Below, one piece after another: positions 1,856 to 58,082 of a stretch of DNA of 64,000 nucleotides. Numbering within the stretch: position 1 is the first letter of the stretch; each line of letters starts with the position of its first letter. Source of the DNA: Amyelois transitella (Eukaryota > Arthropoda > Insecta > Lepidoptera > Pyralidae); contig NC_083535.1 of NCBI RefSeq assembly GCF_032362555.1, positions 1,550,001 through 1,614,000 on the forward strand. The letters run 5' to 3'. A program made the position numbers and the translations under genes. The notes under the pieces are model-generated. The model was not told the origin of the DNA and did not search any database. It worked only from the letters and a program-made list of their open reading frames with translations.

Positions 1856-4800
1856 ATGTTCGGCACAGGCCTTGGCCTTCTGGGCTGGTTAGGGCTCAGC
1901 CCCGTACCCTTCATAGCCTCCGCTATAGGCACAACTGAGCCAGCACTACGTCTGCTAATATCTATTATACTGGGATATCCCTATGCAGTAATATATCACA
2001 AATATGTACGATCAGAAAAACAATTTCGAAACCTTTACTTCATTTTGACTGGACTCGACTTGGCATATTACAATTTTGGCTTTTCGCTGTACCACAATTT
2101 AATACCAGCAGTGGTGATATACCTCACAACAATGTTCCTGAAGCCGGGCAAATTAAATGCGATCGTATCATTCGTGTTCAACTTGGGCTATATTTTAGTG
2201 GGTTACATAGTGACCGAATCTGAGGACTATGATATCACGTGGACGATGCCTCATTGTGTGTTGACACTGAAATTGATCGCGTTATCATTCGATTTGTGGG
2301 ACGGCCAGTTGCTTGCTAAGGGTGAAAAGTTGTCTAGTAACTCCATGAAGACAGCTTTGGTGGAACAGCCTACGTTTGTGGAGTTGCTCGGTTTTGTGTA
2401 TTTCCCGGCTTGCTTCCTGGTGGGTCCCATCTTCTCGTTCCGCCGGTACAAGGATTTCATTGACGACAAGTACCCACTGGACACAGAAGCCAAGGAATAT
2501 GGACAGCAAGGCATGCAGAGGCTAATACAAGGGATATTGTATTTGGTCGCGTTCCAAGTTGGCGGTGAGTTTTAAATCAATAAGGCTCTTGTGGCTTTTG
2601 GCCATATTTCTTTATTTTCTCGGAGAGAATAGAGACACGTAATATATAATTATGTAGGTACTTAATAATACTTTGACAGAGGACTGTTTTCTGTGAATCC
2701 CCCTATTAGTAACTTTTATCACAAGTCACATACATTTAAGGGTGGCTCAATATAGGTGATCTGTTCCTTTATATACATATGATTTTCATGGTAGTTCATA
2801 TAATATGTGATCGTCTTTACATATATACCGTATAAACCATACATAGTTATAAAATCAACCAGTATGTTTGGTTTTCTATTTTAAAATATCAGTTGATACC
2901 GTTTGACGTCATTCTAATGTGTAGTCAGTTTCTTGTCCTTCAAAAGAACACTTGCAGTCAGAGGTTATATACATTTAAACATTTTAAAACTAGCAGATTA
3001 CCTACAAGGAAATTATAATTTTCATAGTTACATACAACGAAGTTTTTTTTCATCTACTAACTGATGCCAGTGACATCGTCCATCTTAAATCTCCATAGAT
3101 TTTATATGTGAAAGAGACGTAGGTATGTATGTGCCGTGTGGTTTCCGACGCTTTAGAATGGAACCACTCCATATCTCATGGATGTCGTAAAAGGCGACTA
3201 TTAGGGTAAATAAACTTGGGATTCGTTTTCTGTCACTATTTGAATCTCAATTCCATCATGCAGGCATACAGCTGAACGTGGCCTTTCAGTCTATTCGCTC
3301 TCGACTGTTGGCTCTGTCTACTTCGCAAAGGTTATAGACGTGATTAAATATATGTATGTATATTTTTTTTAACTAAGACCATTTTTACAAAACAAAAATT
3401 AAGAAGTACAAAGTGTTTTTGTGTAAGTATGTATGTGTATGTTTAATATGTGGATATAAATATATGTATGTGTTTGTTACTGTATCACGCCTGAACGGAT
3501 TTTCATGTAACCTTGCAGTAGTTAATAGGTAGGTATAGCTTAGACATTGGAATAACATAATGAGTTACAAAAACATAGAGATTTCGTCAAGAAGGCGGAC
3601 GAATTCGCTGGCCGAAACTAGCTAGCTAGAAGTATAAAATTAATGTCGCCTTTTCTTTTCAGGAAGCGTGTTCAGCATGAAGTACATGCTGTCCGATGAT
3701 TTCTCAGAAAATTCATTCTTCTACAAACATATGTATTGCGGGTTGTGGGCTCACTTCGCTCTCTACAAATACATATCGTGTTGGCTTTTGACAGAAGGTA
3801 AGATGTGTTATTGACTGACTAACTAGCAGAAGGTAAGATGTCTTATTGACTGACTAGTTGTAGCGTGTGGCTTCGTCCGGTTATTAGTTTTATCAGTAGG
3901 TACTTACATCAATTTGTAACAATGACTCTTTTTTGAAACAGTAACATTAGTAAAACCTTTTAGGATCAGGAAGTTGGACTCCCGTTAAGTTGAAATTCCA
4001 TAAAGTAGATTTGACCAGAATGTTAGGATTTCATGGTTTTGTTTAATCGTAAACTTACCGTAAGTATACCGAATAAGTAGGTATCACTACATAGTATAAA
4101 ACAAAGTCGCTATTTTAGTCTGTTTGTCTGTATGCTTAAATCTTTAAAATTACGCAACGGATTTTGATGCGGTTTTTTGTAACAGGTAGAGTGATTCAAG
4201 AGGAAGGTTTGTATGTATAAATTTTGCACCCGTGCGAAGCCGGGGCGGGTCGCTAGTAATTAATATTTCTTTATTTTATACTATCGTGAGAAAACCAGCA
4301 AATTCTAATAAAGTTTTGCCTGAAAAGTTTGTGGAGGTCAGACGGGGGTCATTTCGTGTAAAAAATTGATTTTAAACTGTGCAAGATCTCGTTCATAGAC
4401 GGGCCCCGGGCTCTTCTCCGGAGAGGTGAAGACTCAATCGGAACTAACCCCAGGAGGATTCCTCCGGAGTCGAAGTCCATTTAAAACCTACCGTGTGGTT
4501 CCCGACACTTAAGAATAGGACTTCCCGTTCTTTTCCATGAAAATTTCGTAAAAGGCGACTAAGGGATAGGCTGATAAACTTGAGATTCTTCTTTTAGGCG
4601 ATGAGCTAGCAACCTGTCACTATTTGCCACTACTCACAAAGGACTAATATAGGTTTCTGGGTATCTATTGATATAACTACAATCACATCGAGTATCCAGG
4701 TCATAATATAACATCACTAGCTGTGCCGACTTCGTCCGCGTGGATTAGTTTTGGACATCATTGAAGCCCTCAAGGATGAATAATTTTCCCCGGTTTTTTT

Positions 4801-7174
4801 ACATTTTCCATTATTTCTCTGCATTTGCTCCTTATAGTTGCAGCGTGATCTTTGCGAGCGATCTATCGAGCCTTCCTCGATAAATGGTCTATTCAACGCA
4901 AAAAGAACTTTTCAATTCGAACCAGTAGTTCTTGAGATTAGCGCGTTCAAACAAACTCTTCAGCTTTATAATAATATAGTATAGATTAATCTATCGACCG
5001 GTTTGTCAATTTTAAATAAATTACTACAATATAGCATAAAGTCAATAGGTCTTGTAGAGTACCTACAATTAGGTCTTAAGTATTCATCGGCCGATGTTAC
5101 AATTACGAAACAATGATAGTGACAAAACTGTTGATGAATATTCAATTTCGTCAACGAGTCACACAGTGGTGAATAACAAATAAGTTTACGTTTTTTAAAC
5201 TACGAGTTAAATTAACTCTTAAAAAGATTTGGAGAAAGGACGCTGTCGCATGTTTTTAACGCGCTATAAGCTATCGCTGTACCGATTCACGTCTTAATAA
5301 AAAGGGAGACAGCATTCGTTTTTTGAGTGATGCTTCATTTCTCGCGCATTTAAAAAAAAAGTATGAATGAATGCATGATGTTCGCTGTGTGGTTCCCGGC
5401 ACCAATACAAAAAGAATAGAACCATTCCATCTCTTTCCCATGGATGTCGTAATGGGCGACTAACGGATAGGCTTACAAACTTGGGATTCTTTTTAAGGCG
5501 ATGGGCTAGCAACCTGTCACTAATCTCAATTCTATCATTAAGCCATTAAAAAAATATAGGTATATACTGCTCGAATAATCGGGTGCCTTAACAGTTCTAC
5601 TACTGATGCTCTAAATATTTGTGTTATGTAATCAGCTAAAGATATTTCAACAATGTTCTAACTTCAAATAGTCGTAGATAACCGCTCAGTGGCGTGATTG
5701 TAACTACCTATGTTATCTTATCCTCGTTAAATTTATGCATTGCATTCATTTTCAGTCTACTGCTACTAGTCTCCACTATGCCACTATCTATACTTATATC
5801 CAAAATTATAGTTCATTTGAAATGAAATGCACTATATGATCATTTCTCAAATAAATTAAGATAATTATTAATAAATAATGTGATTATTATAAATTAATAT
5901 ACATAATAAATGATTCCATTAACATTTTATTTTTCATAAATAACTTCAACAGATTAACGGTTGTATTTAAATACAGTTTTGCGTTCGATGTAAAATATAA
6001 AATATGCATGATAGAAAAGTTTTGCCAATTTTCACAACGCCTATGCGAGTAGGAGGTATAGATAAAACCGGTCCATCCCTCTAGTCCCATTGAGTTGCCC
6101 CATGGTGGGACAAGTGAGACGATTTCGTCCCTCCCAGCGGTCCCATGGGATAAGTGACAATAACGAATTTTTGAAAATCAAAAAAAAATATTTACCTAAA
6201 AAAATCTGATATTTTTCCTCACCAAACAAGTCATGGCAACTGTTGCTATGGCATACATATGTATTGTATATGGCTGGCAACTGGCTGTGCATGTTAATAT
6301 TTATGTGCAATAAATAATTAAATACAAATAAAGAAGATTGCCTACAATGGCTGCAATGGCAATATATTTATACATATAATCACGTCTATATCCCTTGCGG
6401 GGAAGACAGAGCCAACAGTCTTTTAAAGATGAAGATAGACTGAATTTTTTTTTCGCTACCAGACCAGCGTGGAGGCTTAAAGAAATTTCTTTATCAAAAT
6501 TTATAATAAATACACATACATACAATATTCAAAAATTTGTATGTTAATTAAGAAATATTGTGTTCACAGCCGCCTGCATCAGATTCGGATTGTCCTACAA
6601 CGGCATGGAGGGCGCGGCGGACAGTCGCTTCAAGACCTCCAAGTGGGACGGTTGCAACAACATCAAGCTGCTTAGGTTCGAAACCGCGACCAAGTTCCAA
6701 CACTACATAGACAGCTTCAACTGCAACACAAACTATTTCGCCGCCGAGTACATCTACAAGCGGCTCAAGTTCCTCGGTAACAGGAATCTTAGCCAATTCT
6801 TCACGTTGCTCTTCCTCGCCGCGTGGCACGGCATCAGGTCCGGTTACTACGTCACTTTCTTCAATGAATTCATCATTATGTTCATGGAAAAAGAATTGGA
6901 ATCGTTAATGGTGAAAACGAAAATGTACGACCGAATGTGGTCTCATAATGTTGTCAAATATTTATTGTATATAGTACTCAAGATGTACACAATAGTTTTT
7001 ATGGGCTGGAGTCTTGTACCTTTCGATTTGAAAGTGTATTCGAAATGGCTCAAGGTTTATTCTAGTCTTTATTTTTCAGGGTTTTTTTTGTTCTTGCCTT
7101 GGGCGTTTGCGTATAAACCGCTAATTAAAATGGCGATTACTCGTCTGCACCTTAAGAAGGAGGCGGCGGATTAA
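1856..7174 (+). CDS. LPCAT3: LPCAT3-like MBOAT lysophospholipid acyltransferase
   Basis: Spliced CDS from exons 1856-2564, 3663-3797 and 6570-7174. All junctions are GT-AG, phases agree and 1449 nt encode 482 aa, close to human LPCAT3 (487 aa). The protein is rich in membrane segments and belongs to the MBOAT family, which transfers polyunsaturated acyl chains from acyl-CoA to lysophosphatidylcholine and related lysolipids in the ER (Lands cycle; Drosophila relative nessy). The catalytic residues are visible: Asn332 in SFNCNTN and His368 in AAWHGIRSGYY, spaced 36 residues apart as in LPCAT3. The ATG lies 3 nt after an acceptor-like CAG at 1850-1852, so an upstream noncoding exon is likely. 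The C-terminus is lysine-rich (LKKEAAD) but is not a canonical KKXX signal. Intron 2 (2.8 kb) is full of repeats. The family is certain; the exact paralogue (LPCAT3 versus another MBOAT5-like member) is slightly less so. Confidence 0.93.
3131..3360 (+). mobile_element. SINE family 1 copy, diverged
   Basis: Has the head GCCGTGTGGTTTCCGACGC, the core GATGTCGTAAAAGGCGACTA, the block CTGTTGGCTCTGTCTACTTC and a TATGTATGTA tail. It lies in intron 1 of the LPCAT3-like gene. Confidence 0.85.
4095..4260 (+). mobile_element. Retroelement-like 3' fragment
   Basis: Runs from GTATAAAACAAAGTCGCT to GCGGGTCGCTAGTAATTA. It has the look of a short 3'-end repeat common in lepidopteran genomes; clade not assigned. 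Confidence 0.5.
4318..4486 (+). mobile_element. Interspersed repeat (GGGCTCTTCTCCGGAGAGG type)
   Basis: Resembles 29885-30120 on the same strand and 30850-30980 on the other: a bilateral CCCGGGCTC...CCGGAGAGGTGA block followed by a GGGACTAACGCCAGG-like phrase. Probably the 3' region of a non-LTR element. Confidence 0.55.
4490..4632 (+). mobile_element. SINE family 1 fragment (5' half)
   Basis: ACCGTGTGGTTCCCGACAC head and CTAGCAACCTGTCACTATTT core. The 3' half is missing. Confidence 0.8.
4718..4990 (+). mobile_element. Non-LTR-like repeat, 3' end (TTCGTCCGCGTGG family)
   Basis: Shares blocks such as TGCAGCGTGATCTTTG, TTCGAACCAGTAGTTCTTGA and AACTCTTCAGCTTTATAAT with copies at 19578-19845 and 38962-39236, ending in TAGTATAGAT. 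Confidence 0.75.
5238..5282 (+). repeat. Degenerate arm of the hairpin MITE family
   Basis: ACGCTGTCGCATGTTTTTAA...CTATCGCTGTACCG resembles one arm of the hairpin elements at 19420-19547 and 35970-36119. Confidence 0.45.
5386..5545 (+). mobile_element. SINE family 1 fragment (5' part)
   Basis: CTGTGTGGTTCCCGGCACC to TTCTATCATTAAGCC; it lacks the GGCTCTGTCTACC tail block. Confidence 0.85.
6375..6450 (-). mobile_element. SINE family 1 fragment (3' tail), minus
   Basis: ATATAATCACGTCTATATCC and GACAGAGCCAACAGTC are the reverse complement of the SINE tail. It sits about 120 bp before the acceptor of LPCAT3-like exon 3. Confidence 0.75.
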
Positions 7175-14041: not shown

Positions 14042-17000
14042 TTATCTCAATTCCTCTTTCTCGATGACGTTGGTCGTGCTGGAGAAGATCCTGGGATCTT
14101 CTGGCACCCAGATCTTGGCGTGCAAAGTGCTGCCTGGAGGGCGTTCCCCACGTCTCGACCATGACAGGGAGTGCGCTTGGAAATTGCTACCTGGAACAAA
14201 ATAGTGCCTTATTAGTTTGACTATTTACTTATTGCGTAATTTTTTTTTTATAGATAGTAGGTATGTAGATTTTTAGTGATGTCAGAAGATTCCCGAAGGT
14301 CTAATGTATATCTGTGCCAAATTTCGTAAAAATCATTAAACATTCGAGTAGTTTTTGAGTTTATTCGTTACAACATACAAAAATAAAAAATCTTTTCTCT
14401 TCATTATTAGTGTGAATAACTTTTCGGATATAATATGGAAATAAAAAAAATAATCACACCACCAAATTGAAAAAAAACGTACATAAAAAAAATCGATTAT
14501 AAATATAATAAAACTATTAATTCTAACCACGGTATTCACAGCACCTCGCATAATTAACCCTAAGCGGCTATCAACATACTTTATTTATCCACAATTAAAG
14601 CGGAGCCCTATAGGGTGGCATAGAATTCGCAACTGCGGTACATTATCGGAGTATCGGCTAGTGTTGCTTAGTCTATCGATAAACTATCGATAATTTAAGA
14701 AATTACAAGTCCCAAATAGGTAATGTAATAAAGTAAATTAAATTATAGTACCCGCGGAAATTCCGGAAAACCCTCTCCTTGTCCTAGATAGACCACATAG
14801 AAGAACCTAAATATCATTTCATCTTCAACACCCAGAGGTCTGTGCCATGCGTCGATATGTCAGTCACAACACTCAGTGTTCCCTTTAATATAAAGTGTGC
14901 GTATATTTTTCGTTACCGCAGGAATTTTATAAAATCCTCACTAATTGCACTTCTAGACCACATAGGAACAAACATACCAAATTTTAAATCTCCAGTCAAA
15001 GCGGTTTGAGCTTTGCATTAATATGTCAGTCAGATACTTATTTCGAAGAAAGACCTATATTTATTTTATATTCCATAGTAATTATACTATCGATAGGCTA
15101 GATGTTTTATCGATAGTCTTTCAACACTAGTATCGGTGTGTTATTCTTTTATTTAAGGGGTGCCACCCTATGCACGTGTGCGCTGTTACGGCCGGCCCGG
15201 GGTCGACCTGAGGCTTAATTTTTTTTCTTTTATCGCACGTTTTATAATCTATTTTTACTATTGATATCTCGGTGCATCTAAATCGTATTAAAAACAATGA
15301 CCACGTGTTGTTTGTCTCGTGCCATGGGCGTGCCATTTTGTGCTGAGTAAATCGTGGAACAAATGTACTTTTTATATATTATTTAAATTTCAACACTATC
15401 AGTTAAAGACAGAGTAAAGTTTTCTTTCTTTCTTTTCTTTATTACTTCCACCGGACTTTGGCAATGTCATGGTATTAATAGGAAGAGTTGATTGTCTTGT
15501 CAAAGTCACAGATAGTCTACATTCTTATTTCAAAAGCTTAGGATAATTTTAAATTGAGCGAATTGCGATTGTAGGCGTCGTGCTACAATTGACTATGTAC
15601 TTTAAATTGTCTCTTTTAAGCTTCAGAACTGTTTACGAGTATATTTACAGCGTATGATATAAGTTATGCATGCACCGAGTTTGCCATACGATTTAATTGC
15701 AGTTTAGCGACACAACCAGCGTTCCCCAGTCATTAGGGCCGGCCTCTCAACATTTATAAATCCATACTTCACATGTGTCTAATTGTGTATTGTGGACTGT
15801 ATTTATCGGACACCTGATAGATCGTGGCTCGTTAAGGTTTCTAGTGTGAAGGTAAATTTTAAATTCATAAATTTATTAAAAGCACAGCTGGCGTGTGACG
15901 TAGGAATAGATAGGAACTGTAATGTTTGAACCAGACGAAATTTAAACGATTTATTAATTTTATGTATAAAATTCTCGTGTCACAATGTTCGTTCCCGTAC
16001 TCCTTCAATACGGCTTGACCGATTCTCTTGAAATTTTGTAGGCCTGAAAATCGGCCAACATCTATTTTTCATACCCCTTAGTGATAAGGGTTGTCCAACC
16101 TTAACATTTTTTTTTGTAACTAGTAATAACTTAAAAATTATATACTCGTATATGGCAAAACAACGTTTGCCGGGACAGCTAGTGTCAAATAAGATTTACG
16201 TTCCGCCCATCAAATCTTCGACATATTTGTAAAAGAATGAAGTTAATGTCCACTTACAAAAAAGAAAAGTTTGTTCAAACGTACTATAGTGGAGTTGAAA
16301 AGTTGAAACAAGGTGAAGTTATTTCCAATTTCCTTTAATAATTACACTGTATGTTATCACAAAGTTTCATAACCACCGCAATTTATAACATTTGACCTCT
16401 GTAATTTTTCCCTGCATACTTGGAAAGAGCTCCTAATTCTTCCTCTATCCGAAGTATATGGTTGTATTTCCCGACTCGCTCACCTCGGACCGGAGCCCCG
16501 CATTTGTACTGCCCCGCTGACAACCCCACCACCAGGTCAGACAAAAACAGATCTTCGGTGTCACCCCAACGGTCCATGACTATAGCTCCTAAGCCACTAG
16601 ACTTCAGCAACTTGAACGCTTCTATAACCTCAGTCAGAGTCCCAGCTTGGTTGATTCTCAAAGCGACGGTGGTACCGGCCTTTTTCTCAATCGCCAAACC
16701 CACTCTTCTTATGTTTGTTTGAGTTAAATCGTTTCCAACAAGCTGGTTGGCAGTCCTAACGGTCAAATTAGTCCATGCCGCCCAATCGTCGAATTCGAAC
16801 GCGTCTTCAACAGAGCACACAGGAAACTCCTTCATATTATCCAAATACACCTCGGCAAGTTTATCTGAAGACATGTATTCCTGCGGGTTTGAGTGTGGAT
16901 TCTTGAATTCCAAGTCGTAAGCGCCGTCTTTGTACATGTCGGTGGCTGATGCGTTTATAGCTATTTCTGCTTTGCCGGTGTAACCACACTGTTTGATCGA

Positions 17001-20000
17001 GTCTGTGAGGAACAGCAGCGCATCGCGGTGACTCTGAAGAGGTACGGCGAATCCGCCGTTATCACTGACATAAGTGCACTCAATGCCGTACTTCGCTCTT
17101 ATTACATTTTTCACGTAAGTGTATATTTCCGTTCCAATGCGCATGGCTTCTGCGAAGGAGGAGGCTCCGGTCGGCATTATCATGTATTCCTGGAAGGGTA
17201 GGCCGTTGGAAGACAGGATTCCACCAGTAAGGATAGTGAAATGTGGCACGGGCAGTATAATGCTGGTGACGCCAGCCATGTCTGAAATGTGTCTGTAGAG
17301 AGGCACCCCTTTCTTGGCAGCTCCAGCTTTAGCGATCACTAGCGATACACACATGATAGCATTTGCGCCGAGGCGTGACTTGGTTTCTGTGCCGTCCAAA
17401 GCGATTAGGAATTGGTCGATTTCTTTCTGCATGGTCACTTCTAGATTTTGTTTGATGAGCTCTGGCGCGATAATGGTGTTGATGTTTTTGACGGCAGACG
17501 TGACTCCTAGGCCGTGGTATTCCTTCGGGTTATTGTCTCGTAGTTGGACCGCTTCTGTCAGCTTCTTGAGGTCGGTGTTGGGGACTCCGATACGGAACAG
17601 ACCAAGTTCAGTGACCATATCCACTTCCACTGTAGGCCTGCCAGTCGCGTCGAATATTTGACGAGCTAGCAGGATTTTAATGGGCATTGTAGTTATAGAT
17701 TGTAAAAGTAGCGTACAAAATATAAAAAAATCTTATCGAATGTATGACATAAATAGTGTCAATAAATGAAGGGCAATCTCAAAAGTCAATGAAAAAAGGA
17801 AATAGACAAATACGTCTATTAATCAACTTTTTTTGGAAATAAATCTGTGGACATCTAAGGAGGAAACTTTAAGAAATAAAAAAATATATGGTATGAAATA
17901 ACCTTAGTGGCCTAGTAGGTGTTGAACTCGTTCAAACTCCGGTCAGTTTACCTACGTGTTAGTTTTAATAATTTAGAATTTGTACATATGATATTTTTAA
18001 TATTTTTCTAGGAAAAGTTTGTTAGACTAATTTAAAATTTACTAACTACTTAAAAAACTGGCCAGTTAAATTGATTTAATATTTTTATTTGCAGTAAAAT
18101 TCGTCTGATTACAAGTGAATGCAAATTGCTAATGAACTTTCGTAATGTGCCTATATCTTTAGTAACAATTTGATGTTTAAATAAAAAACAAGTAAAAAAA
18201 AGCAAAGTCAACACTCCAACAAAAGCGGTGCCACACGTGCGCGATAATCCGTATGTAAATCCTACATTACATTTCGATAAAGTGTTTTTATTAATTGAAA
18301 AAGAGATTATCTGAAGCACTCGAAAAAATAGAGGGGTTTTTTATCAGCGGCCGACGCCCCTACAATAGTATACTTATTAGGTGCTAGGCGTGCAAATAAC
18401 TTATTTTTGTTCTGTTTGATCTTGACATAAACTTGAAAAATCTTTATAGAAAGCTATGATAAAGCCTCTTAATATATCCTAAATGTCTCTCTTACTAGCA
18501 CTTTCACCCTTCTTCCAGTTTCTATACTTTCACATAATATTAGTTAGGTACTGATCGGATTTACGCGAGTAAGCCAGCTCAAGAGTATTACCTGAAACTT
18601 GACAATTATGCGGGGCTCGTGGCAAGTGGAAAAATGTAGACTTTGCCTGCCCCTCCGGGAAAAAGGCATGATTTTTTTTGTATACAAATTCTTAAATCAG
18701 GTGTTATAGATTGGGATTAATTTCCAACCGCTAAACCTACTTTCGCAACCTAGTAATTTTATTAATGTAAAGAAATATATCAGAGTTTTGTAAACAGGCT
18801 AATACAGGGGGTGTTAATAGATTTCTAATACACTCCTCTGCCTCGGGGGGTGATCTCTCAATTTGCTACGCTATTATCTAACAACCCCTTGTTTACAATC
18901 CACAGTTCCCAATGGATTCAGTTGTGTTAACACTGCGCATTTTAATCAACACTTAGATATCATATTCTTTCGCTGTGCAAATCACTCTACGGCCTCCCTC
19001 TGTATGCCACACGATTGTGCAAAATTTCATGGAAATCGGTTAAGTAGCTTTGATGATGAAAGACGGAAAAACAAAAACACTTTCACATTTACAATATTAG
19101 TAGAGGTTACGCGTCTTTTCAGAAGAAGCAAGCAGAGACTTCATCGTTCCATTTGCCACGATTCCTGCATAGGTACTTCTTTGCGACATCAATATTTGCA
19201 TGCAGGTTGGCTAGATTTTTTGTGAGCAGGATGTCCATTAATAATACGATTTCGATTCGATTCGTTCTGGTGAAAGGTCAAAAAAGGAGTGCCCCAAGAC
19301 AAGTACATATAAATAAAGAAAAACTTAATTTGGATAAAGCAAAATAAATATATACCTATGCTGTTGTCGAAGTCGGAGCAAGTGGAAACAACGTAATTAT
19401 TTCCGCCTACACCTCCAACCGCCGTAGTTTTAACACGCGAGACGCTGTTTTTATCGCGCGAAAAATTATCGCTGTTTCGCTTTTATTATGATGTGCGACG
19501 GGACAGCGATAGTTTTTCGCGAGAACAAAACGGGGCAGGCATACGGCATTATCATAGAAATCAGTCCCTATATACTTAACTAGCTGTGCCCGCGACTTCG
19601 TCCGCGTGAAATAGTTATTTTGGGCATCATTGAATCTCTCAAGGATGAATAAAGTTACCCGTTTTTTTTTTTTCAAATTTTCCTTTATTTCTTTGCTCCT
19701 TATAGCTGCAGCGTGATGTTATATAGCCTTAAACCTTCCTCGTTAAATGGTCTATTCAACGCAGAAATAATTTTTTAATTCGAACCAGTAGTTCTTGAGA
19801 TTAGCGCGTTCAAATAAACAAACTCTTCAGCTTATAGATTACGATTTGTAAGTGTGTTTATACTTAAGTGGACTCAGAGGACAGCCGATTAGCTAAGGAA
19901 TACGCTATCATTGTACGACAATAAACAACAGAATCTTATTCCCTTGTCGCGATCAATTAGAAATAGGTTGGTAAAGTTATAAAAACAATTTATCTAAAGT

Positions 20001-23000
20001 GATGTGAATGGCAAAAACAATTATAGGGGTCCACACTGTGAGAGAATCCGTAATTATGGACAGCAATTAATTGGCACCCATCCCCTGGGAACGAGAGGTG
20101 AGTCCCCGGGATATTGCGCTCATCACGCGACTCTGTGGGAATGGGAATATATCCAGATGACACCTGGACCGATAATGGGGAATGGCATGCAATAATTTGA
20201 TGCTGAATATATGTTGTTATCCTCGTTGCGTTTATAAAAAAAAAAGGGTTTTCAGTCAGCATTTTTTTAACATAACACATAACATAACCCTTCTTGCAGT
20301 CGGATAGAGAGAGAATTATCTACGACATAATCATTATTTTTTTAAATATTAATAATAATATAAATTTTATTATTTAAATTTAGTATTAATCAAATAATCA
20401 TAACAATGTATTTTATCGTCCACATTTCTTTTCTAAGTTTGGATAGAAGGAAATGGAAGTTAACATTATTTTATTATTATTGAAGAAAATGCTGCAATGC
20501 AGAATGTTACTTACTGTTTCTACTGCGCTGACGCTTTGGAAGAGGCAATAATCTTTGTTTTAATTAATTTCTAATAAAAAGTTAATCAATATAGTGAAAC
20601 CAAAAGATATGACAATTAATTACTAAGTGATGTTGAAATGTCCCCTAATCTTTTATATAAAATTTTCGTGTCAAAATGTTCGTTCCCGTTCTCCCCCGAA
20701 ACGGCTTGACCGATTCTCATGAAATTTTGTGAGCATATTGAGTAGGTCTGAGAATCGGCCAACATCTATATTTTCATATCCCTTAGTGATAAGGCTTGTC
20801 CAGCCTTAACATTTTTTTTTTAACTATAAATTATTTAAAAATTATTTATATGGCAAAACAACGTTTACCGGGACAAATAGTAATGAATAAAAATTTTGAA
20901 TTTGAATAAAAAAAAATGCAATAACAGTCTGCTCATCCTTGAATAACTTGTAAATCGAACTGAATAAACAATATGCAGTAATGAGGCGCATTAGAAGCGG
21001 TTACTGCTATACCTATATCGATTAACAAAAGGTGCAATAACAAATTGGTTTGTCGTGGGGTCGCCACGGGGTCGCCCCCAGACCCCACCTTGCACCGCAT
21101 ATTGACATATGTTCGAAATTTTGTCAATCGTTTTGACAGACTGTGAGGATAGGCACTTACAGCTTTACCAGCTTTTATTCGCTCGCGTGAAGCTTTAGCG
21201 CCACCTTCACGCGCGAATTTATGTAGCACCTATAAAAGAACAGCGGTTTTTCGCGGATCCCACGAGAACTATAGTTTTTACCAGGTTGAAAAGTACCCAA
21301 TGTCTTTCTCCAGACTTTATTTAGTTTAATGGGCACGTTATTCATTTTATATTATATTATTACAATATATATACATACTTACATACAGAGAAAAAAGTTT
21401 TGTGCAAACTCACGATATTAGTACAATACTTATATCGGAAACGGGAACTTTCTTCAAAACGTCTGCCAAAACGTAAATGGCCGAGATGGGATTTGAAGCT
21501 GTGCCTTTCTACACATCACGCATTTTAACCGGGCACCTCACTCATTCAACCAACGACGCTCTATAAATTATAACAAAAAAATGTATGATGGTGTGGCGAC
21601 ATCTCTACGCCATAAGTCACAAAAACAAAATCACGCGACGCTATCAGTCAAAAACAGCGAAAAGTCTAAATCGCTCAAGCAAAGATTTCACGGATTGGAG
21701 CATATGTACGTACAACCTCCGACACAACATCTTCGGAGCCGCGGTTCCCCAGGCATCACACCTAGCCTGGCGGAAAATCTTCCCTTTGGTTTTGTGTGGT
21801 CGAGCCGAATCATCGCTCCCGCTACAGTGGAATTATTCGTTTCGTTCAATGTATTGTTACCTCTGATGATGATTTTCTTCTGTTCGTCCCTGCTGTTAGA
21901 ATTTCCGACTCCCGTCAGCATTGTGTCAGATGAGTTTCTGTCAGCTCTCACCTGAGAACGAAATCATTTATAAACTAAAATAAAAAAATACTTGAAAACG
22001 ATTAAACAGAACGGAAGAATCATTATCTGAATTGCAAACCAAGATATCCAGAAGTGTATATTATACGAAAGAAGGATTAATTAAATAGATACGTGTTTTT
22101 TTTATCATTAAGCCAAACAGCTGAACTCTTTTCAAGGCTGTTGGCTCTGTCTACCGCGCAAGAGATATGGACGTAATTATATGGATGTATGCATGTGTTT
22201 TAATTTTTAAGTTTTTCATCACGTTTTTTTATGAAATTTACATCTATTTAACCATACAATGTTTAAGACTTACCAATTCACCCAAAAAACTGATATAACC
22301 AATCGCAAGCTTCAGAGTATCGACCTTGGACAGCCGTTTCTCATAAGGCAGGGTTGGTATGTGAGCCCTTAGGCCTTCGAAGGCGTCGTTGATGGACTGC
22401 ATGCGCCTGCGCTCCCGTAAGTTCGCTGCTTGACGCTGCTGGATCTGCTGTTGGGGACACCGCGACCTGCGCTTGTGAAGCCGACGGCAGTCTGACCTGT
22501 CAAAAAATTAAGTTTTGTGACAAACGGGTACTTAGAATAATGTAAGGATAAGTCATGCATTTATAAAACTTTAATATTTTACGTAATTGTAAGTAATTAA
22601 GTAAGATAGGTATGATTGTTTGATTTGAAAAAACTAACATACTCTGCCGACCCCACGTAGAAATTGGGAAAAGGTAACGACGAACAAAAAGGTTTGGTCA
22701 TTTTTATTTTGATACATTTTTTAAATTCCCTAAGCACTTATTTAATTTTGGAACATCTTTTGGTATTTTTTTCTGGACATAAGGTAGATTTGGAGTTCTA
22801 CTACATAACTCAAATTACTTATAAGAAGGTAACTAGGTTAATGTGACAAATAATTTTTTTCATCATGTCCTAAGCGCCGAAACCTGATAGAGTAAATATA
22901 ACATATAATCATGTCTGTCATCCCTTGCGGGGTAGACAGAGCCAACAGTCATCATAAGACTGAAGACAACTTTCGGCTGCTGCTTAATGATAGAATTGAG

Positions 23001-23693
23001 ATTTAAATAGTGACAGGTTGCTAGCCCGCCGCCTTAAAATGACAAAATAGAAAGAGTAAGAAGAATTTATATCAGATGAAAATTAACCTGCACAGTATTC
23101 AACAAAAAAATAAGTCGCTGGTGCAAAGTTTGCAACATTTTGTAAAAATAAATTAGGACTGAAAAACATTCGCAAAATGCAAACAAAAATAAAATCACAT
23201 AAATAAAATGAAATTGGTTACATCGTTTACCTACTTACGATGAGAAGAAATTTTCATTGATCAAGTAGGCAGGTACGTAATAAATAAATATTTTGATTTG
23301 TATCGTACATTGGTAATCGAACGAAATACGAATCCTTTTTATTCGTTTAAAAATATTCGATATATATTGACAACAAACGACAAATGATTTTTTTACATAT
23401 ATATAATTTCTTTAGGTTTTCTGCTTCTTTTGCAGCAGCACCTGTTTTTTTTTTTCATAAAAATAAAACACATGAAAATCAAGCGATCAGATCACCGCAC
23501 CAACTTACCGTTTCCTAGGCGTAGACAAATTTTCTTGATCACTCGCGTAAAGACTGCCGTCAGACATCGAAGAGTCATCATAGAGAAACAAATCCGAGCT
23601 GTTTGCTGATGAAGAAGGTGAGCTGCTGATGGTCAGGGGAGCCACACAGTTCTCCAACGGTTGGCACCTTAGATTGCTTTCCATGTTGAACAT
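14042..23693 (-). CDS. Fer1: PTF1A/Fer1-family bHLH transcription factor
   Basis: Four coding exons on the minus strand: 23693-23509, 22496-22274, 21951-21861 and 14190-14042. GT-AG phases match at every junction; 648 nt encode 215 aa. Residues 83-137 are a bHLH domain with basic region [16 protein letters not shown] and the PTF1A hallmark [16 protein letters not shown]. The last exon supplies two C-terminal boxes, HSLSW (Trp177) and [10 protein letters not shown] (Trp194). In vertebrate PTF1A the corresponding tryptophan boxes bind RBPJ/Su(H), and PTF1A dimerises with an E-protein on E-boxes to specify inhibitory neurons and pancreas. A similar neural role in insects is inferred. The N-terminus is serine-rich. 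ATG 23693 is used because the frame upstream begins only with a GTG. Intron 3 (7.7 kb) holds the enolase-like gene and several transposons. Reading exon 3 onward without splicing gives an unrelated 57-residue extension and is rejected. Confidence 0.92.
14659..15129. mobile_element. hAT-like non-autonomous element (471 bp) with 8-bp target duplication
   Basis: Ends TAGTGTTG...CAACACTA with further inverted similarity (CTATCGATAAA inside both ends). It is flanked by GTATCGGC (14651-14658) and GTATCGGT (15130-15137), an 8-bp direct repeat with one mismatch, as expected for hAT insertion. The interior has no ORF and contains two related half-units (around 14755 and 14925). Confidence 0.8.
15964..16190 (+). 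mobile_element. Repeat family C copy 1
   Basis: ACGGCTTGACCGATTCTC, AATCGGCCAACATCTAT and TATGGCAAAACAACGTTTGC are shared in order with 20653-20882, 4.7 kb away. It ends GCCGGGACAGCTAGT, a typical retroelement-like 3' end. Confidence 0.75.
16334..16339 (-). terminator. Candidate polyadenylation signal ATTAAA (minus)
   Basis: TTTAAT on the plus strand reads ATTAAA on the coding strand, about 45 nt after the enolase-like stop codon. This is the commonest variant hexamer. If it is used, the transcript has its own short 3' UTR inside the host intron. Confidence 0.4.
16383..17687 (-). CDS. Enolase-like protein, catalytic residues lost (probable pseudoenzyme)
   Basis: A single uninterrupted 434-aa ORF that aligns with enolase from the first residues (canonical enolase is 433-436 aa), so the start is secure. 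Fold-level landmarks remain: [36 protein letters not shown] and IEEELG. Against yeast numbering, Glu168 (here 167), the metal ligands Glu295 (294) and Asp320, and Lys396 (395) are kept. The catalytic pair Glu211/Lys345 is Asn210/Arg344. His159 is Leu158, His373 is Asp372, metal ligand Asp246 is Asn245, and the mobile SGAST loop is replaced by NTDLK. Conversion of 2-phosphoglycerate to phosphoenolpyruvate is therefore unlikely. The gene is intronless and nested, same strand, in intron 3 of the PTF1A-like gene, which suggests a retrocopy. The absence of stops or frameshifts suggests that a structural or binding role is under selection. Its function is unknown. Confidence 0.9.
   Translation of the reverse strand: MPIKILLARQIFDATGRPTVEVDMVTELGLFRIGVPNTDLKKLTEAVQLRDNNPKEYHGLGVTSAVKNINTIIAPELIKQNLEVTMQKEIDQFLIALDGTETKSRLGANAIMCVSLVIAKAGAAKKGVPLYRHISDMAGVTSIILPVPHFTILTGGILSSNGLPFQEYMIMPTGASSFAEAMRIGTEIYTYVKNVIRAKYGIECTYVSDNGGFAVPLQSHRDALLFLTDSIKQCGYTGKAEIAINASATDMYKDGAYDLEFKNPHSNPQEYMSSDKLAEVYLDNMKEFPVCSVEDAFEFDDWAAWTNLTVRTANQLVGNDLTQTNIRRVGLAIEKKAGTTVALRINQAGTLTEVIEAFKLLKSSGLGAIVMDRWGDTEDLFLSDLVVGLSAGQYKCGAPVRGERVGKYNHILRIEEELGALSKYAGKNYRGQML
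17688..19400. other. Intron sequence of the PTF1A-like gene upstream of the enolase-like gene
   Basis: AT-rich. It includes a tail fragment of SINE family 2 at 18605-18680 (GTGGCAAGTGG...CCCCTCCGGGAAAAAGGC) and a retroelement-like 3' end at 19000-19110 followed by another SINE 2 piece near 19135-19200. ORFs here are in these repeats. No promoter element was recognised for the enolase-like gene. Confidence 0.5.
19420..19547. mobile_element. Hairpin MITE, copy 1
   Basis: Imperfect inverted repeat with arms containing GCTGTTTTTATCGCGCGAAA and, inverted, TCGCGAAAAACTATCGCTGT. The same arm sequence forms the hairpin at 35970-36119. Confidence 0.65.
19578..19845 (+). mobile_element. Non-LTR-like repeat, 3' end (TTCGTCCGCGTG family)
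   Basis: Second copy of the family at 4718-4990: TAGCTGTGCCCGCGACTTCG through AAACTCTTCAGCTTATAGAT. Confidence 0.75.
20030..20200. other. GC-richer unexplained block in the PTF1A intron
   Basis: Base composition differs from the flanks and short ORFs run on both strands, but I recognise neither a protein nor a repeat family. A repeat fragment is the simplest explanation. Confidence 0.3.
20484..20595 (+). mobile_element. LINE 3' end fragment, diverged
   Basis: AAAATGCTGCAATGCAG...CTTTGGAAGAGGC is a diverged plus-strand version of the minus-strand LINE tails at 27600, 36240 and 38168. Confidence 0.55.
20653..20882 (+). mobile_element. Repeat family C copy 2
   Basis: Same ordered blocks as 15964-16190, ending ACCGGGACAAATAGTAATGA. 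The two direct copies bracket the enolase-like gene. Confidence 0.75.
22107..22195 (+). mobile_element. SINE family 1 fragment (3' tail)
   Basis: CATTAAGCCAAACAGCTGAA and GTTGGCTCTGTCTACCGCGC. It lies in PTF1A intron 2, close to the acceptor side of exon 3. Confidence 0.75.
22905..23040 (-). mobile_element. SINE family 1 copy, minus, partial
   Basis: Reverse complement of the family: CCCTTGCGGGGTAGACAGAG through AGTGACAGGTTGCTAGCC. It lies in PTF1A intron 1. Confidence 0.8.
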
Positions 23694-56770: not shown

Positions 56771-58082
56771 CTGTCAAGAAAGTAGCGGGAAAAGATCAAT
56801 AATACACAAACTGTTTGTTATTCATCCAAATTTATTTTATCACCTTCAAAATATGCTCCTTTAGAAACGATACACTTACGCCAACGAATAATCCAATCAT
56901 CAAAACATTTTTTAAACGCTGTTTCCGGAATTGAGGTCAGTTCTCGCCGCGAATTCTCTTTTATGTCTTCTACCGATTGAAAACGGGTGCCACGAAGTGG
57001 TAATTTGAGTTTAGGAAAAAAAAAAAAGTCGGCTGGAGCCATATCTGGTGAATATGGTGGTTGCTCGATGGTATTTGTTGAGTGTTTGGTTAAAAATTCG
57101 TTCACAATGATGGCCTTGTGCGAAGGTGCATTATCATGGTGCAAAATCCAAGAATTTTCTTTCCACAAATCTGGCCTTTTTCGTCGGATTTGCTCTCTTA
57201 AACGCCGCATAACACTCAAATAATATTCCTTATTTACCGTTTGACCTTCCGGCAAGAATTCCGAGTGCACAACACCGCGATAGTCAAAGAAAACAGTCAA
57301 CATGACTTTGACTTTTGAACGACTTTGGCGTGGTTTTTTCGGTTTCGGTTCAGTTGGAAGGCGCCACTCCGAAGCTTGTTGACTAGTTTGCATGTCAAAC
57401 TCGTAAACCCACGTCTCGTCACCAGTAACAATGCGTTTCATGAATGTTGGGTCGGAATTGACTCGTTCTAGCATGTCCTCAGTGACTCTCATGCGATTGA
57501 GTTTTTGAAAAAAATTCAGGTCTTTTGGGACTAGCCGAGCGGCAACATGTTTCATACCCAAATTATTAGTTAAAATGGTACGGATCGACTCGTGAGATAC
57601 AGAAAGTTCGGTGGCTATCTCTCTCAAAGTTGAATGAGGATTTTCAGTCACTATTTCCTTCACTTTTGCGATGTTAACTTCAGTTGCAGACGTTGATGGC
57701 CTACCAGAGCGAGGCAAATCTTCCACCACATCTCGACCGCTTTTGAACGCTTTGTACCACTCATAAGCACGAGTTTTTGATAAAGTCGATTCACCGTAAG
57801 GCTTCTGTAACATTTTCAGTGACTCCGAACACGATATTCCATTGGCAATGCAAAATTTAAGACAAACTCTTTGTTCGATGTTTTTAACCATTATGAAATT
57901 AGCAATACACACTAGATATGATATAACTAAAAATAGCACTGTATTTAATGTAAACAACAGATGCAACTCAAACTCCGCGCCAAAATGGAAAACAGTTGTG
58001 CCAATCTAACAACAACAAAAAAAACAAAAATTTGAATTTGGAACCATAAATAAATAATCCATTCCCGATACTTTTCTGACTG
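56771..58082. mobile_element. mariner-family DNA transposon (about 1.3 kb)
   Basis: Inverted termini GTCAAGAAAGTAGCGGGAA (left) and GTCAGAAAAGTATCGGGAA (right, read inward) flank a single transposase ORF. The length is typical of mariner. The outermost bases and the TA target duplication are not unambiguous; the element may extend a few bases further on each side. Confidence 0.88.
56818..57891 (-). CDS. mariner transposase, open reading frame intact
   Basis: 357 codons from ATG at 57891 (MVKNIEQRVC); the longer frame upstream has only a TTG and is not used. The N-terminal helix-turn-helix DNA-binding region spans roughly residues 1-110. The catalytic triad is complete and spaced as DD34D: Asp158 in TGDETW, Asp253 in HHDNAPSH and Asp288 in SPDMAPAD. 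The linker motif usually written WVPHEL is here RLVPKDL. The family cuts and pastes DNA at TA sites. No stop or frameshift breaks the frame, so the copy is young or conserved. The FFFF run after Asp288 is encoded by a 12-base homopolymer, a place where an assembly error or slippage could hide. The subfamily is not assigned. Confidence 0.93.
   Translation of the reverse strand: MVKNIEQRVCLKFCIANGISCSESLKMLQKPYGESTLSKTRAYEWYKAFKSGRDVVEDLPRSGRPSTSATEVNIAKVKEIVTENPHSTLREIATELSVSHESIRTILTNNLGMKHVAARLVPKDLNFFQKLNRMRVTEDMLERVNSDPTFMKRIVTGDETWVYEFDMQTSQQASEWRLPTEPKPKKPRQSRSKVKVMLTVFFDYRGVVHSEFLPEGQTVNKEYYLSVMRRLREQIRRKRPDLWKENSWILHHDNAPSHKAIIVNEFLTKHSTNTIEQPPYSPDMAPADFFFFPKLKLPLRGTRFQSVEDIKENSRRELTSIPETAFKKCFDDWIIRWRKCIVSKGAYFEGDKINLDE

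Follow-up and report, generated by a model that had tools for sequence, protein, structure and literature searches.

A Lepidoptera-only second enolase with an altered active site, nested in a Fer1/PTF1A-like gene model of Amyelois transitella

The closest described relative of the gene reported here is BmEno2 of Bombyx mori, a second enolase of 433 amino acids (aa) that is encoded on chromosome 26 and falls in a cluster of Lepidoptera only (Kikuchi et al. 2017, PMC5237310). It is 84.3% identical to the Manduca protein, identity between the two enolase types of both moths is 58–61%, and the enzyme Eno1 is 93.1% identical between Bombyx and Manduca (PMC5237310). BmEno2 has Asn in place of the metal-site Asp, and Ser, Arg and Asp in place of the active-site Glu, Lys and His; enolase II of Antheraea pernyi is cited in the same paper as having these residues (PMC5237310). 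The BmEno2 mRNA was reported chiefly from testis, and also from the suboesophageal ganglion and weakly from ovary, with its peak from the late fifth instar to the prepupa, the time of spermiogenesis; BmEno1 is expressed in all tissues including testis, and Kikuchi et al. proposed a lepidopteran-specific role for BmEno2 and deemed enzyme activity without the usual residues possible (PMC5237310). We describe here an intronless enolase-like gene in a 64,000-nucleotide stretch of Amyelois transitella (Pyralidae) DNA (contig NC_083535.1, positions 1,550,001 to 1,614,000; "the window" below), which we are close to certain is the orthologue of BmEno2. We think it likely that it encodes a catalytically disabled enolase that remains folded, is probably dimeric and has been retained for a role in sperm formation.

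The coding sequence and its altered active-site codons, with residues in yeast enolase 1 numbering, are located in the window as follows:

16383..17687, minus strand: intronless enolase-like coding sequence, 434 aa, almost certainly the BmEno2 orthologue (frame, Pfam, NCBIfam and primer comparison)
17559..17579, minus strand: codons 37–43, NTDLKKL where yeast has the mobile Ser39 loop, SGASTGV (alignment; coordinates by arithmetic from the coding sequence)
17214..17216, minus strand: codon 158, H159L (alignment)
17058..17060, minus strand: codon 210, E211N, Ser in Bombyx BmEno2 (alignment, primer comparison)
16953..16955, minus strand: codon 245, D246N, a metal ligand, change common to BmEno2 (alignment, primer comparison)
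16731..16733, minus strand: codon 319, D320N, a metal ligand (alignment)
16656..16658, minus strand: codon 344, K345R, the general base, Arg in BmEno2 too (alignment, PMC5237310)
16572..16574, minus strand: codon 372, H373D, Asp in BmEno2 too (alignment, PMC5237310)

The frame (16383–17687, minus strand) runs for 434 codons without an intron and ends in a single terminal stop codon, and its protein has both domains of the enolase fold family at full length (Pfam Enolase_N, E = 3.8e-41, and Enolase_C, E = 2e-97) and scores 371.5 bits against the NCBIfam enolase equivalog TIGR01060, whose cut-off is 300. The complete, stop-free frame of enolase length that had been claimed in the initial annotation of this DNA is thus borne out. 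The frame is not due to chance: stop-free runs were at most 168 codons long when the window was shuffled 30 times (mononucleotide shuffles), and none of 1000 shuffles of the coding sequence reached 434 codons. By sequence, the closest solved structure is PDB 5wro (E = 9.5e-155), whose title names Drosophila enolase; PDB 7n6g, the Chlamydomonas central-pair structure with its enolase, is also matched. The window protein is identical to Drosophila enolase at 235 of 428 aligned positions and to yeast enolase 1 at 196 of 433. In the viral_contigs collection two stretches matched the search pattern, and neither encodes a relative.

Residues were mapped through yeast enolase 1, in a sequence that agrees with PDB 1ebg over its full length. 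The 12 residues checked are the activity and metal-binding list of Kikuchi et al. (PMC5237310) plus R374 and S375; in Staphylococcus aureus enolase the matching Arg and Ser grip the phosphate group (PMC4667285). Eight of the 12 are changed in the window protein (S39L, H159L, E211N, D246N, D320N, K345R, H373D and S375W) and E168, E295, R374 and K396 are retained. Both members of the catalytic pair and two of the three metal ligands (D246 and D320) are altered, so that E295 is the sole metal ligand kept, and it is also the only feature retained among those expected of a catalytic enolase (Glu211/Lys345, D246/E295/D320, the Ser39 loop, H159 and H373). All of the substitutions that had been named from the sequence, at Glu211, Lys345, Asp246, His159 and His373 and in the serine loop, are present in the alignment, and two more, D320N at the third metal ligand and S375W, had been missed. 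Having lost its catalytic base pair, its mobile serine loop and all but one of its three metal ligands, this protein is most likely unable to convert 2-phosphoglycerate to phosphoenolpyruvate. The earlier proposal of a pseudoenzyme with a new role is thus strongly backed by the residues as far as the disabled site goes, and loss of catalysis is what we infer from them.

For comparison we used 80 enolases from prokaryote genomes, the top-ranking ones among at least 584 matches to an alignment of the Drosophila, yeast and window proteins. This control is biased towards conservation, its members having been selected for their similarity to Drosophila enolase and E168 having been part of one search pattern. 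All 12 residues are intact in all 80 of these control enolases. The alignment has 127 columns that are conserved at ≥97%, and the window protein keeps 82 of them, 4 of 12 at catalytic positions and 78 of 115 elsewhere (Fisher p 0.026); its losses are concentrated in the catalytic site. Within the control set, the enolases of two archaeal metagenome-assembled genome contigs (L001, Nanoarchaeota, and L002, Aenigmatarchaeota) have 69% and 66% identity with that of Drosophila, and the other 78 loci are at 56% or less; these two enolases are of eukaryotic type, by transfer or contamination.

Comparison with Bombyx was limited to the eight BmEno2/C primers printed in PMC5237310, a non-random sample of the gene, one of which (reverse primer A_R) was placed by the stated probe positions 788–1022. 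All eight could be placed on the window coding sequence, where they cover 50 codons; 41 of the 50 residues and 119 of the 165 bases are identical between the two species. Bombyx and Amyelois share a residue that differs from Drosophila at 17 of these 50 positions (D246N included), as members of a lepidopteran Eno2 group would; Bombyx agrees with Drosophila only at four, and the window protein with Drosophila only at one. The group's metal-site change of Asp to Asn, and its active-site Arg for Lys and Asp for His, are also found, as D246N (and D320N), K345R and H373D. BmEno2 (BmEnoC), Manduca Msex2.06012 and A. pernyi enolase II are like the window protein in their active-site changes and near-equal length (433 vs 434 aa), and the published BmEno2 probe starts at the same nucleotide position, 788; BmEno2 differs at 9 of the 50 compared residues, among them 211. 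There the group's change of Glu to Ser is absent, the window protein having Asn where the Bombyx primer reads SGGFSV. This position is therefore not tied to any one catalytic residue; it seems free to vary once the Glu has gone, and Glu to Ser may not be a defining change of the Eno2 group.

This difference at 211 bears on whether the protein could still be a glycolytic enolase, or work on a related substrate, by means of a reconstructed active site, since a new catalytic residue would not be expected to differ between Amyelois and Bombyx. Such rebuilding would find polar residues to work with in Arg345 and Asp373, next to the retained E168, E295, R374 and K396, and Kikuchi et al. called activity without the usual residues possible (PMC5237310), but it would have to make good simultaneous changes at the catalytic pair, at the metal ligands D246 and D320, in the Ser39 loop and at H159 and S375, and we regard it as quite improbable.

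The novelty implied in the initial annotation was not borne out, as the same kind of altered active site was published in 2017 for BmEno2 and cited for A. pernyi enolase II. The gene is real but of a kind already in print, to which residue 211 and its nesting in a Fer1-like gene (below) are added details; the nesting and the intronless coding sequence are features of the Amyelois window, and the word intron is absent from the main text of PMC5237310.

That the gene is not a decaying retrocopy, as had also been proposed, is well supported by its orthology with BmEno2, its open frame, a low ratio of nonsynonymous to synonymous differences and a composition unlike that of its flanks (48.6% GC, and 54.3% at third codon positions, vs 35.2% GC in the remainder of the intron in which it lies). 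The proportions of nonsynonymous and synonymous sites that differ (pN and pS), measured over the 50 primer-covered codons against the Bombyx orthologue, are 0.101 and 0.879, giving a ratio of 0.115 (bootstrap 0.050–0.191); pS is saturated and lies beyond the limit for computing a synonymous distance, and none is given. Other placements of primer A_R gave pN/pS of 0.178 and 0.153, and all three values are far below 1. When neutral substitution was simulated from the coding sequence (indels not counted), the frame stayed open in 13 of 1000 runs at 0.1 substitutions per site and in none of 1000 at 0.2. Because the frame is open and the protein conserved while synonymous sites are saturated relative to Bombyx, we conclude that the gene is under purifying selection. 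The Bombyx–Manduca amino-acid distance, from the table in PMC5237310, is 2.3 times larger in Eno2 than in Eno1; Eno2 is looser than the enzyme Eno1, yet held.

The intron-free coding sequence, as expected of an Eno1 retrogene, suggests that the gene arose by retroposition of a glycolytic enolase gene with several exons. A processed pseudogene that drifts without function would likewise be an intronless copy, here within another gene's intron, and the faster divergence of Eno2 than of Eno1 between Bombyx and Manduca (84.3% vs 93.1% identity, PMC5237310) might be thought to suit it. It is contradicted by the pN/pS of 0.115, by an intact frame that no simulation kept at 0.2 substitutions per site and by the expression of the Bombyx orthologue; neither a broken frame nor a neutral pN/pS was found, and we rejected drift as extremely improbable.

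A single-sequence structure prediction was poor (predicted local distance difference test score, pLDDT, 36.5) and was set aside for an AlphaFold2 model whose alignment was built from 34 of the 80 control loci. This model has a pLDDT of 91.2 and a predicted template modelling score of 0.91, and its best PDB match in Foldseek is Drosophila enolase 5wro (template modelling score 0.97, root-mean-square deviation 1.3, 55% identity). Such a model leans on relatives and is no proof of stability; the preserved fold that had been claimed agrees with it, and we think that the enolase fold is probably kept. The presumed dimer contacts R8, E20, E188 and R414 are all kept in the window protein, and this would suit its pairing with another enolase subunit; the changes at the conserved R14 and K59, close to these residues, argue the other way. 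Enolase works as a dimer (PMC5237310), and the window protein is probably dimeric. Were its partner Eno1, the inactive subunit could be a regulator and not a structural part, altering the activity, stability or sperm location of Eno1; heterodimers of ENO4 and ENO1 have been proposed in mammals (PMC7132099) and BmEno1 is present in testis (PMC5237310). We consider this regulatory role unlikely.

A structural role in sperm is our leading guess because of precedents. Mouse ENO4 has several critical-residue substitutions, and its knockout leads to sperm defects and infertility (PMC7132099). Mammalian ENO4 is comparable to the window protein as an extra enolase with altered critical residues, and it is expressed in testis and required for sperm formation; it differs in its independent origin, being vertebrate-only, with a ~70-kDa precursor and only 26% identity between the mouse protein and Chlamydomonas enolase (PMC7132099), in contrast to the 55% identity of the window protein with Drosophila enolase. 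The sperm leucylaminopeptidases (S-LAPs) of Drosophila are structural parts of sperm paracrystalline material, and the two that were tested were inactive aminopeptidases (PMC6388916); a Bombyx S-LAP is needed for eupyrene sperm (PMC13115824). They too are enzyme paralogues with altered metal and catalytic residues that have been retained in sperm, but in an unrelated family and in mitochondrial paracrystalline material. Two further enolases are less close parallels. Tribolium TC011729 is a testis-enriched additional insect enolase (PMC8438054) but is 77.8% identical to BmEno1 (PMC5237310), so conventional by sequence, and the enolase that is built into the Chlamydomonas flagellum as a component of the C1b projection (PMC8175508, PMC12297659) is 67% identical to mouse ENO1 (PMC7132099), so likewise conventional.

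We therefore favour, as a hypothesis drawn by analogy, a structural or docking role in spermiogenesis. A retrocopy of a glycolytic enolase would have been retained by purifying selection with its full fold and without its catalytic residues; it would be expressed mainly in testis during spermiogenesis, if it behaves as BmEno2 does, and would act by a non-catalytic mechanism as a stable dimer, either a homodimer or a heterodimer with active Eno1, that might be built into the developing sperm or provide a docking site there. Among the roles guessed at in the initial annotation, the testis-specific one would fit the published expression of BmEno2, in another species. A more far-reaching idea, that Lepidoptera independently made a retrocopied enolase into a non-catalytic sperm part (a tail scaffold or an anchor for Eno1), perhaps in one sperm type only, is one that we put forward tentatively and with some doubt.

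Several observations weigh against a catalytically disabled enolase kept for sperm formation. The window protein still passes the NCBIfam equivalog cut-off for enolase; 37 of the 115 conserved non-catalytic columns are also lost, and with so many other positions gone the relaxation is not confined to catalysis; and the retention of K396, R374, E168 and E295 leaves room for some binding of ligands. The protein may also act outside sperm, given BmEno2 mRNA in the suboesophageal ganglion and, weakly, in ovary (PMC5237310). A central-pair role is uncertain because no counterpart of the Chlamydomonas enolase is present in the central apparatus of mouse sperm and tagging of Tetrahymena C1b recovered none, though Eno1 fell in C1b-less mutants (PMC8175508, PMC12297659). 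Enolase is also absent from the main text of four lepidopteran sperm or testis papers (PMC13060016, PMC13115824, PMC5712127, PMC11288676). In a full-text literature search across 5.39 million papers no BmEno2 knock-out was found and the name BmEno2 occurred only in Kikuchi et al. (PMC5237310). Searches on enolase with pseudoenzyme gave no title naming Lepidoptera, the only match for enolase, Lepidoptera and sperm proteome concerns a fruit fly kinase, a testis-specific enolase retrogene in insects gave no match, and the A. pernyi enolase paper was not among the matches listed.

We see in the gene a clean natural candidate for a pseudoenzyme, with the fold probably kept, the catalytic site dismantled and the protein held by selection between Amyelois and Bombyx. 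The group itself was published in 2017, and its function is testable. A sperm role, if true, would stand alongside those of vertebrate ENO4 and insect S-LAPs, and the recruitment of a retired metabolic enzyme into sperm would then be a path that evolution has taken repeatedly.

The gene around the enolase is a Fer1/PTF1A-like basic helix-loop-helix gene, whose exons were found with PTF1A stretches as bait. The gene model comprises four in-frame minus-strand exons with GT-AG junctions; the encoded protein, of 215 aa, matches Pfam HLH (E = 1.3e-21) and has the C-terminal tail HSLSW...W.PEDPR:

23509..23693, minus strand: Fer1/PTF1A-like exon 1, from the ATG (gene model)
22274..22496, minus strand: exon 2, basic helix-loop-helix domain (gene model, Pfam HLH)
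21861..21951, minus strand: exon 3 (gene model)
14191..21860, minus strand: third and last intron, 7,670 bp, containing the enolase (gene model)
14042..14190, minus strand: exon 4, HSLSW...W.PEDPR motif and stop (gene model)
16334..16339, minus strand: ATTAAA, possible poly(A) signal 43 nt beyond the enolase stop codon (consensus match only)

The enolase coding sequence lies wholly within the third intron on the same strand, so the nesting in a PTF1A-like intron that had been proposed holds at the level of the gene model. Transcription or splicing of the host might in this position drive or limit the enolase, so that its expression would partly follow that of the host, for example in the nervous system. 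BmEno2 mRNA in the suboesophageal ganglion besides testis (PMC5237310) would accord with this, but the nesting is known from the gene model of this one species, and we hold such an influence to be very unlikely.

Direct copies of one dispersed repeat (15955–16197 and 20646–20895) flank the enolase in this intron, 4.7 kb apart and with blocks that are 77–94% alike. Beside the Fer1-like gene, plus-strand open reading frames at 1856–2575 and 6560–7174 match Pfam MBOAT and are probably exons of one acyltransferase gene (span 1856–7174). An Rfam scan of the window at the gathering threshold gave no matches. At 56818–57891 (minus strand) an intact frame encodes a mariner-type transposase of 357 aa that matches Transposase_1 and HTH_48; inspected by eye, it has a D,D34D-like triad, and it is possibly a recent element.

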